Translations under genes and position numbers: made by a program
Origin: Nitrospinota bacterium
Lineage (GTDB): Bacteria; Nitrospinota; Nitrospinia; Nitrospinales; VA-1
NCBI GenBank assembly: GCA_009873635.1
Contig: WAHY01000014.1
Span: forward strand, 4,566-36,954
Length of the DNA: 32,389 nt
Direction: 5' to 3'
Notes under the pieces: generated by a model
Seen by the model: the letters and a program-made list of their open reading frames with translations, nothing else
Database searches by the model: none
Told to the model about the DNA's origin: nothing
Shown here: positions 20,087 to 22,805 of the stretch, one piece after another
Numbering within the stretch: the first letter of the stretch is position 1
How the letters are laid out: each line of letters begins with the position of its first letter

Positions 20087-20812
20087 CTAGTTCAAAGCAA
20101 TAAATCCGGCAAAGTTGTTCCATTTAAAAAACAGGTCTACGACCTTGAACCCGGCTTTTTTAATGAGACCTTGATTTTCCTCAACAGTTAGAGGGATGAG
20201 GACATTTTCCAATGCTTCCCGTTTGCGGGAAATTTCAAGGTTTGAATACCCTCGGTCCCGCTTGAACTGGTGATGAAAGTCTATGAATGTCCTGCCCAGT
20301 TCGGGAATTTCGCTCTTTATTTTTTCAATAAGAACGAGCGATCCTCCAGGAACCAGTCCATTAAAGATATTCTTTAACAGCGATACCCTGTTTTCCGGCA
20401 ATAAAAACTGAAGGGTGTAGTTCATCACCACCACAGATGCATTTTGGATGGGAACTTCCTCATTCAGATCCGCTTCATGGAATTTGCAAATAACGGGTGA
20501 CTGGCTGAGTTTTAATCTGGATTTCTCCAGCATGGCCGAAGAGTTGTCCACTCCATGTAATTCAATATTCTTATTTGTATCTATCAATTGTGCTAATTTT
20601 AAGAGAAGGGTTCCTGTAGAACACCCCAGGTCATAAACAGAAGTGTTTGGCTGGGCAAACTTTGCGCACCAATGCACTGCCAATGACTGGCATTCGTGAT
20701 ACATTGGTACACTTCGCTCCAACATATCATCAAATACGTTTGCCACAGATCCGTCGAACTCAAAACGACTGCCGACATTTTCCTTTTTAAATAATGTGTC
20801 TCTTTTGGAAAT
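20087..20812 (-). CDS. cmoA: carboxy-S-adenosyl-L-methionine synthase (CmoA-like), probable ATT start
   Basis: Rossmann-fold SAM enzyme that makes carboxy-SAM from SAM and prephenate for wobble-uridine tRNA modification (cmo5U) with CmoB. The family motifs are VANVFDDMLERSVPMY, VYDLGCSTGTLLLKLA, VVMNYTLQFLLPENR, and FIDFHHQFKRDRGYSNLEI. The first conventional start codon is GTG at 20746, which would cut off the conserved N-terminus. The frame continues upstream through SKRDTLFKKENVGSRFEFD, matching the E. coli opening MSHRDTLF, with no ATG, GTG or TTG. An ATT at 20812-20810 sits exactly where the homologous Met belongs, six bases after an AGG; from there the protein is 242 aa, close to the E. 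coli length. CmoB is not in the window. Confidence 0.85.
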   Translation of the reverse strand: MSKRDTLFKKENVGSRFEFDGSVANVFDDMLERSVPMYHECQSLAVHWCAKFAQPNTSVYDLGCSTGTLLLKLAQLIDTNKNIELHGVDNSSAMLEKSRLKLSQSPVICKFHEADLNEEVPIQNASVVVMNYTLQFLLPENRVSLLKNIFNGLVPGGSLVLIEKIKSEIPELGRTFIDFHHQFKRDRGYSNLEISRKREALENVLIPLTVEENQGLIKKAGFKVVDLFFKWNNFAGFIALN

Positions 20813-20831
20813 GATGCACCTGTTAAGAAAG

Positions 20832-20866
20832 GTAAAAAGAAAATCCCCTTCCGGAAAACCGGAAGA
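20832..20866 (-). terminator. intrinsic terminator of leuA
   Basis: On the minus strand, just after the leuA stop, CTTCCGG and CCGGAAG form a perfect 7-bp stem with a TTTT loop, followed by GGGGATTTTCTTTTT. This is a good rho-independent terminator and separates leuA from cmoA, whose own start lies about 20 bases further on. Confidence 0.8.
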
Positions 20867-20884
20867 GGAACAAAGAGTTATTAA

Positions 20885-22447
20885 TTACGGTCCTGGAAGT
20901 TCACTTCCTTCGACCGGGCCAGACTTGGTCTTTAAAAGAAGTTTGTTGATCGCATTCAAATAAGCCAATGCGCTGGCTTCAAGTGTATTAACACCGGCCC
21001 CTTTTCCCAGTATTTCCCTTTTTTCGTGCTTGACGCGAACGGTGACTTCTCCCTGCGCATCCTGCCCTTTTGTTTTAGCCATGACCTGGTAATCCAGGAG
21101 TTTGCAACTGAGGCCGGTGATTTTATCAATGGCATTATAAATTGCATCTACCGGACCATCGCCACTGGCACTGGCGGTATGTTCCTGTTTATCAATGCTA
21201 ACCAGGTTTACCATTGCCTCAGGAACCTTTCCAGATTCAAACTCACATTGCATGGAACCAAGTTCGTAAGTGTTTTGTTGTTCCACAGAAAATTTTTGTT
21301 TCTGAATGAGGGTGTGAAAGTCGTCTTCAAAAATTTCCTTTTTCTCGTCAGCAAGAACTTTGAACTCCTGAAACAGCCTGTCCAGTTCGTCCTGATCCAG
21401 CGTATATCCTAATTCCTGTACTTTACTTTGCAGGGCATTTCTTCCAGAGTGTTTACCCATGACCAGTTCAGATTCCTCGCCGCCAATATCTGCGGGATCC
21501 ATGATTTCAAAAGTATCTTTGCGTTTCAGAAAGCCATGCTGGTGAATGCCTGATTCATGTGCAAAAGCATTTTTCCCGACTATCGCCTTATTGCGTTGAA
21601 CAAAGAACCCCGTCAAGCTGCTCACAAGTTTACTGCAAGGCTGGATATGTTTGGTTTCGATACCTGTGTAGACAGAGTTGAAAAAATCCTTCCTGGTTCT
21701 TACAGCCATGACCACTTCTTCCATGGCTGCATTTCCGGCACGCTCACCAATACCGTTAATGGTGCATTCAATCTGCCTTGCACCAGCTTGCACAGCAGCA
21801 ATTGAATTGGCAACAGCCAGCCCAAGATCGTTATGGCAATGTACGCTGATAACAGCCTGATCTATATTCGGTACGTTGGATTTTAAGTGCCGGATGAGCT
21901 CGGCAAACTCTTCTGGGACGGTATATCCCACTGTATCTGGAATATTGACAGTTGTGGCACCGGCTGAAATGACTTCTCGCGTCACATCAACGAGAAAATC
22001 CTTTTCGGTTCGAGTTGCATCCATAGGAGAGAACTCAACGTCATCGAAATACTTGCGGGCAAATTGTATTGCCTTCACTCCCATTTCAATAATCTCTCCT
22101 TTTGCTTTTTCAACCATATGGTCTCGGTGTACTTTTGATGTAGATAGGAAAATATGAATTCTCGGAGATTCGGCGTTTTCCAGGGCTCTGGTTGTCGCTT
22201 CAATATCTTTTTCCAGTGCGCGTGAAAGTCCCGCGATTTTTGAGCCACGGATTTCTTCAGCGATTTGCTTTACCGATTCGAAGTCTCCTGGAGAAGCAAC
22301 CGGAAATCCTGCTTCGATAACATCTACTTTAAGCAAAGCTAGTTGCCGGGCGATCTCAAGTTTTTCCTTGATGTTCAAGCTGGCACCGGGGCATTGTTCC
22401 CCGTCTCTTAAAGTGGTGTCGAAGATGATGAGTTTCTCGGGTTGCAT
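20885..22447 (-). CDS. leuA: 2-isopropylmalate synthase
   Basis: 520 aa catalysing the first committed step of leucine synthesis, condensing acetyl-CoA with 2-ketoisovalerate. The TIM-barrel domain opens IIFDTTLRDGEQCPGASLN, carries the metal-binding SVHCHNDLGLAVANS and the GIGERAGNAAMEEVV glycine loop; the central NKAIVGKNAFAHESGIHQHG helix segment is typical. The last 120 or so residues (AMVNLVSIDKQEHTASASGDG onward) are the LeuA dimer regulatory domain, which gives leucine feedback inhibition in relatives. A TTG three codons upstream is in frame, but the ATG chosen here has AGGAGG ten bases before it, while the TTG is too close to that site. Ends in an intrinsic terminator. No leucine leader peptide was found. 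Confidence 0.96.
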   Translation of the reverse strand: MQPEKLIIFDTTLRDGEQCPGASLNIKEKLEIARQLALLKVDVIEAGFPVASPGDFESVKQIAEEIRGSKIAGLSRALEKDIEATTRALENAESPRIHIFLSTSKVHRDHMVEKAKGEIIEMGVKAIQFARKYFDDVEFSPMDATRTEKDFLVDVTREVISAGATTVNIPDTVGYTVPEEFAELIRHLKSNVPNIDQAVISVHCHNDLGLAVANSIAAVQAGARQIECTINGIGERAGNAAMEEVVMAVRTRKDFFNSVYTGIETKHIQPCSKLVSSLTGFFVQRNKAIVGKNAFAHESGIHQHGFLKRKDTFEIMDPADIGGEESELVMGKHSGRNALQSKVQELGYTLDQDELDRLFQEFKVLADEKKEIFEDDFHTLIQKQKFSVEQQNTYELGSMQCEFESGKVPEAMVNLVSIDKQEHTASASGDGPVDAIYNAIDKITGLSCKLLDYQVMAKTKGQDAQGEVTVRVKHEKREILGKGAGVNTLEASALAYLNAINKLLLKTKSGPVEGSELPGP

Positions 22448-22805
22448 GACTGACAAACCTCCTGATTAAATAAAGTATCATTCAATATTATAAGATGTAT
22501 CCAATTAAATACCAGAGCTGCTTTTCCCTGGATTCCAATTTGAATGTGAATAAGTTGGGAGCTATGTGAAACTGGTTAGGGGAGCCTGAAGCTCAGGGTG
22601 AAGACTCGCCCTTATAGCAGGGCCAAAAGTAGGCGTAGGTCCAGGCAAGAGCGTAAACTGAATTGTTTTTTAGAGTGGTAATACATTTTCTCAAGCCTGT
22701 TTAAATTTCGTAAGTAATAATTTATTCTAAACGAATTACCAACCAAATTACAAATATTAAAAACCACCGTTCTTTATGAAACTTATGAAAGCAAATAGAT
22801 AAGAG
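22448..22805 (-). other. intergenic region upstream of leuA
   Basis: About 350 bases with no gene. Closest to leuA are its AGGAGG ribosome site and a TATAAT box. Further away is a GC-richer patch (about 22575-22670) with two small perfect stems: CCTGA/TCAGG at 22585-22597 and GCCCT/AGGGC at 22608-22623. I could not match it to a T-box, riboswitch, 6S, SRP or tmRNA signature; the outer part near the CBS gene is plain AT-rich sequence. Confidence 0.5.
22487..22515 (-). promoter_or_regulatory. candidate leuA promoter
   Basis: Minus-strand TATAAT at 22492-22487, about 40 bases before the leuA ATG; the hexamer 17 bases upstream is CTGGTA (weak -35). The transcript would have a short leader, which argues against leader-peptide attenuation. 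Confidence 0.4.

Follow-up and report, generated by a model that had tools for sequence, protein, structure and literature searches.

The cmoA locus raises a simple question: at which codon does translation begin when the reading frame offers no ATG, GTG, or TTG ahead of the conserved N-terminus? The window (the whole stretch of DNA analyzed, 32,389 nt) comes from a group of marine nitrite-oxidizing bacteria, and the preliminary description, made from the window sequence alone, had proposed that its cmoA starts at AUU. To our knowledge, AUU or AUC starts have been documented for only a few bacterial genes. Gene finders restricted to ATG, GTG, and TTG miss such starts, and in this case the true start of cmoA would stay hidden.

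The cmoA locus

The cmoA reading frame (20087..20812, minus strand) encodes a protein of 241 amino acids of the carboxy-SAM synthase family, with solved relatives 1im8, 4gek, and 4iwn. The protein was identified as CmoA by TIGR00740 (248.8 bits, cut-off 193.3); its score with the second CmoA model, NF011995, is below the cut-off (195.7 vs 285). Upstream on the minus strand lies leuA, encoding 2-isopropylmalate synthase (20885..22456, minus strand; NF002086 and TIGR00973 over cut-off), the gene order being leuA, then cmoA. Going upstream, the cmoA frame meets its nearest stop at the leuA stop codon itself (20887-20885), 72 nt before the ATT. The frame is open from this stop; as had been described, no ATG, GTG, or TTG precedes the conserved N-terminus, and the first standard start codon is the GTG at 20746 (20744..20746, minus strand), initiation at which would lose 22 residues.

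At the position of the initial Met the window has ATT (20810..20812, minus strand), the minus strand reading AAC AGG TGC ATC ATT TCC AAA AGA GAC ACA TTA TTT with the ATT at 20812-20810. The SKRDTLF opening encoded from there aligns with SHRDTLF of the solved CmoA 4gek, and the protein and its relatives match this structure from residue 2 onward. The AGG noted earlier six bases upstream of the ATT (20821-20819) belongs to a Shine-Dalgarno-like AGGTG (20817..20821, minus strand), a 5-nt match located 4 nt before the ATT; its duplex energy is -7.8 kcal/mol, a standard anti-Shine-Dalgarno tail being assumed for this and all other matches. Directly before the ATT there is an ATC (20813..20815, minus strand), a possible second weak start; in this tandem, it is the ATT that occupies the conserved position. 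No match to the window DNA was found in the plasmid records searched, and no promoter was found near cmoA, as the region 20600-22700 contains one sigma-70-like match (22422-22393) vs 2.9 expected.

Conservation of the start codon

A search for the cmoA family gave matches at E <= 0.001 in 40 of 46 genomes, some of them merely weak methyltransferase matches. In the window's genus (Nitrospina sp. LS_NOB clade), cmoA is present in 15 of 16 genomes, the window's own included; G014 of this genus, which is 74% complete, had no cmoA match. The codon at the start position is ATC in 11 and ATT in 4 of these 15 genes, the window's own counted. In genus g6, six of nine genomes yielded a full-length cmoA, five with ATT and one with ATC. 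Taken together, the 21 genes (below, the ATY rows) have ATC in 12 cases, ATT in nine, and no other codon. Isoleucine codons inside the same genes include 131 ATT, 111 ATC, and 66 ATA, and the start is never ATA. The 18 named loci of both genera also have ATT or ATC, being largely from the same genomes and adding no species. The presence of ATT or ATC at this position throughout two genera is not a matter of chance.

The simplest objection is that the codon is really ATG, obscured by a sequencing or assembly error or lost by a private mutation, and the window does come from a draft assembly in 54 contigs. The preliminary description had asked whether relatives carry ATG at this position. None of the 20 relatives in both genera does; as all of them have ATT or ATC in independent assemblies, the ATT in the window is not a sequencing error. 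With this possibility refuted, we consider its remaining probability negligible.

In a cmoA tree of 50 rows with midpoint rooting, the 21 ATY rows form one side of a single branch with support 100/98, a grouping matched by none of 500 label shuffles. All 29 outgroup rows have a standard in-frame start, at most 10 codons away in 25 of them, and further named cmoA loci from many groups have a standard start in 61 of 62 cases among the matches listed. The exception is L151 from Hufsiella arboris (Bacteroidota), where the cmoA frame lacks ATG, GTG, and TTG from the last stop up to the region of the conserved start; several ATT codons occur in it, and the gene may have an AUU start of its own or contain a base error. 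As a separate observation, in L023, L066, and L067 (genus g7) and L026 (g9) the nearest standard start of cmoA is 22-24 codons upstream of the usual place, and these CmoA proteins may carry an N-terminal extension.

Onset of selection and candidate starts

We compared selection on both sides of the ATY codon in 20 of the 21 rows, leaving out L014 where one codon is missing. The pN/pS ratio, 0.90-0.92 in the 24 codons before the ATY, falls to 0.24 over codons 1-8 after it and is 0.31 over codons 1-21. The upstream codons were counted unaligned, by distance from the ATY, and indels bias this value towards 1, so it reflects the absence of shared coding constraint rather than a measured rate. Protein-level selection on cmoA thus begins at the ATY codon.

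These data bear on the possibility that translation starts downstream, at GTG 20746 (codon 23) or at the ATG of codon 30, leaving the 22 conserved residues unmade. No standard start codon comes earlier in the frame than the GTG, and the ATG is present in all 21 rows. On the other hand, codons 1-21 are under protein-level selection and the N-terminus matches the solved CmoA. As to whether relatives begin at the GTG, a point also raised in the preliminary description, GTG is kept in just 10 of the 21 rows, the other 11 having another valine codon (GTA in seven, GTT and GTC in two each). The partial retention of the GTG, together with selection on the codons before it, rules it out as the start, and we regard any downstream start as very improbable.

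Translation could also start at another upstream codon, standard or not, that varies by species. An upstream in-frame GTG, TTG, or ATG occurs in five rows (L002, L007, L011, L013, L031); in the other 16, the window included, the stretch from the last stop to the ATY contains no standard start. The candidates include a GTG three codons upstream in L011 and L013, overlapping the Shine-Dalgarno match, TTG eight codons upstream in L031 and 12 in L002, TTG and ATG 12 to 24 codons upstream in L007, a CTG in L004, and the ATC beside the ATT in the window. An ATC or ATT codon immediately precedes the start in three of the 21 rows (L001, L009, L012), as the same tandem ATC-ATT in L009 and as ATT-ATT in L012. 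However, no candidate position is common to the clade, the codons before the ATY show no protein-level selection, and L014 and L015 have no upstream codon within one base of ATG at all. We therefore hold an upstream start to be improbable, if somewhat less so than a downstream one.

A Shine-Dalgarno match of 3-6 nt precedes the ATY in all 21 rows at a spacing of 4-10 nt, being weak in four (L006, L016, L017, L031). The comparison thus shows three things: the ATY codon itself, the fact that it is conserved, and protein-level selection setting in at this point. As far as can be judged from sequence, the non-standard start of cmoA appears to be real, error and a simple wrong choice of start being excluded.

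Position of cmoA relative to leuA

In the window, leuA and cmoA are separated by a terminator-like hairpin with a T-rich tail (20844..20869, minus strand). By the strict definition, such a hairpin precedes cmoA in 11 of the 21 ATY rows vs none of 21 control stretches inside cmoA. Stem-loops below -12 kcal/mol precede cmoA in 17 of the 21 rows, vs counts of 3, 2, and 4 of 21 for the three controls taken inside cmoA; some of the 17 lack the T-rich tail, and 15 of them end 24-35 nt before the cmoA start. Terminator-like sites as such are not in excess in the scanned stretch of the window (three vs 2.6 by chance).

In 18 of the 21 ATY rows the leuA stop was recognized, 33-214 nt before the ATY and at least 69 nt before it in 17. 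The 16 other rows of the family contain the strict hairpin once. The leuA stop was recognized in 12 of them; the aligned cmoA codon follows it at 17-27 nt in 10, and at 68 and 73 nt in two g7 rows. Because the leuA stop is far and the hairpin present in the ATY clade, and the stop is close in other rows, cmoA of this clade appears to have moved away from leuA, mostly to behind a hairpin, and to have a weak start. The ancestral cmoA probably had a standard start close behind leuA. The hairpin is not a general mark of weak starts: this idea was rejected, as four of six rows of genus g14 combine a terminator-like hairpin with an ATG start of cmoA.

infC, initiator tRNA, and other AUY starts

The classic gene with an AUU start is infC, to which cmoA had been likened in the preliminary description. 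We found infC in 39 of 41 genomes and read 30 of its loci. In the window's genus, 13 of the 14 loci carry ATT at the expected position, the fourteenth (L058) being cut at the sequence end, and in 11 it is the first codon after a stop; L051 has, in addition, an in-frame TTG three codons upstream. The likeness therefore fits: the lineage uses AUU where it is expected, and our approach recovers it. In other genera of the order, infC apparently begins with ATA (L046, L059, L062) or ATC (L065) where the window's genus has ATT.

An altered initiator tRNA was considered and rejected. The pattern GGGCTNNNAACCC has four matches in the window's own genome vs two for the reversed control pattern, and one of the matching loci was called by ARAGORN as a tRNA, namely tRNA-Met with anticodon CAU. 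No unusual initiator tRNA was seen in this genome, which is estimated to be 95% complete.

We also surveyed AUY starts by comparing 832,389 bases (the window and 40 stretches of G000) with 759,461 bases of G012, likewise taken as 40 stretches; this sample amounts to about 30% of each genome, and short extensions are missed in it. Filtering by third-position differences and identity retained 195 ortholog genes (186 with a stricter cut), 16 of which have at least eight aligned codons ahead of the first standard start of both genomes. Judged by eye, strong conservation before the standard start is confined to infC, cmoA, and a tlyA-like gene among the sampled orthologs. The tlyA-like gene is a case of frameshift, not of start choice, and the remaining 13 were taken, also by eye, for conserved leaders or chance. 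Hence infC and cmoA appear to be the sole clear cases of conserved coding before any standard start in this sample.

The TlyA-family rRNA methyltransferase gene deserves a separate description. It lies in the window's genome outside the window (L207:13908-14639, plus strand; TIGR00478 211.6 bits, cut-off 185.8), begins in one frame, and passes into the -1 frame after nine consecutive A. In relatives it is found at loci L271-L283 and L289-L305. Of 30 loci read in the family, the start motif was found in 27; a shift is needed in 26 of these 27 (25 with A9, one with A10), the gene of L302 reading straight through in frame. In the window's genus, the shift is at A9 in all 12 readable loci. The pattern resembles programmed frameshifting, or slippage during transcription, that has been conserved.

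Absence of recognizable CmoB

CmoB is the usual partner of CmoA, though not part of the definition of CmoA, and the known use of carboxy-SAM is tRNA wobble modification. No CmoB (TIGR00452) over cut-off was found in the 41 Nitrospinota-related genomes, including the window's own, vs one of 14 control genomes; the best match is partial (44.3 bits vs cut-off 275). The acceptor of carboxy-SAM may differ from the known one, or a very divergent CmoB may have been missed.

Discussion

We consider it very probable that cmoA has a conserved AUU/AUC start in both the LS_NOB clade and its sister genus, a start which would be read by fMet-tRNA, be restrained by IF3, and keep CmoA low. The ordinary fMet-tRNA with anticodon CAU would start at AUU or AUC with two bases paired and a mismatch at the third, helped by the Shine-Dalgarno sequence. 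IF3 would reject most of these attempts, and CmoA would be made at a low, IF3-dependent rate, so that the start codon would keep the protein scarce. The stem-loop between leuA and cmoA, often terminator-like, would lower cmoA mRNA in the same way as the start codon would lower translation, and we infer that lowering CmoA is the purpose of both. Repression of non-standard starts by IF3 and autoregulation of infC are described in PMC5472188, as is a lower yield from AUU and AUA starts of Staphylococcus aureus in PMC13009471. In vitro, according to PMC10158994, more IF3 brought the proportion of full-length product down to 31.1% when AUU was decoded by CAU.

Alternatively, the AUU/AUC start might have no regulatory meaning, having drifted in and persisted since little CmoA is needed. 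The single origin of the ATY codon in the cmoA tree fits this, and the demand for CmoA may indeed be low because no CmoB was found over cut-off in the 41 genomes. Yet synonymous sites are strongly diverged (pS 0.5-0.8), so that there was time enough to return to a standard codon, and none of the 21 rows has done so. By comparison, PMC5622118 gives 202 changes of GUG to AUG in 5,080 cases and 43 of UUG to AUG in 2,468 between close relatives; it also gives one switch to AUU among 61,358 reconstructed ancestral AUG starts. We find drift a doubtful explanation, though one that keeps some weight. Because ATT and ATC have been exchanged across two genera with no return to a standard codon, the data suggest that weak initiation itself is selected in cmoA.

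A more far-reaching version of regulated weak initiation, which we put forward tentatively and think rather unlikely, makes cmoA a second IF3-controlled gene beside infC. The AUU/AUC start, together with a leaky terminator unlinking the gene from leuA, would let CmoA and the carboxy-SAM pool follow the levels of initiation factors, and carboxy-SAM, with no recognizable CmoB present, would maybe serve a purpose different from the known tRNA wobble modification. In any case, cmoA makes it possible to test IF3-dependent control in a gene besides infC, and further starts of this kind can be sought by contrasting selection on the two sides of a codon.

We found no report of an AUY start of cmoA in the open-access literature on cmoA, Nitrospina, and non-standard start codons, to which the search was confined. 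The new elements are the gene and the lineage, how deeply the start is conserved, and the absence of a recognizable CmoB as the usual partner; the kind of start is already known from infC, pcnB, sigR, and ccpN, and cmoA would belong with the genes having conserved non-standard starts of the infC type.

Like cmoA, infC has an AUN start (AUU, AUC, AUA) conserved across species, and the window's genus uses ATT for it. Unlike infC, cmoA encodes no initiation factor, and it could therefore be a target of IF3 rather than part of an autoregulatory loop. The pcnB gene of E. coli, reportedly limited by its AUU start in the work of Binns and Masters from 2002, resembles cmoA in being an ordinary enzyme gene; cmoA differs in gene and lineage, in the occurrence of both AUU and AUC, and in conservation spanning two genera.

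In Streptomyces, according to PMC5472188, sigR starts with GTC in 32 of 34 cases and with GTT in two, conserved in the genus, and has a misleading GTG inside the ribosome-binding site. It thus shares with cmoA a conserved non-standard start with a pyrimidine in the third position, and the misleading GTG resembles that of cmoA in L011 and L013. In contrast to cmoA, the sigR codon is GTC and not AUY, and repression by IF3 was demonstrated by experiment there, whereas for cmoA it is predicted. Finally, ccpN (AUA) and cvfC1 (AUU) of S. aureus have conserved AUN starts that lower protein yield, as described in PMC13009471; they are like cmoA in the conserved start, which would lower yield there too, except that their extended Shine-Dalgarno pairing contrasts with the 3-6 nt match of cmoA, weak in four of 21 rows.
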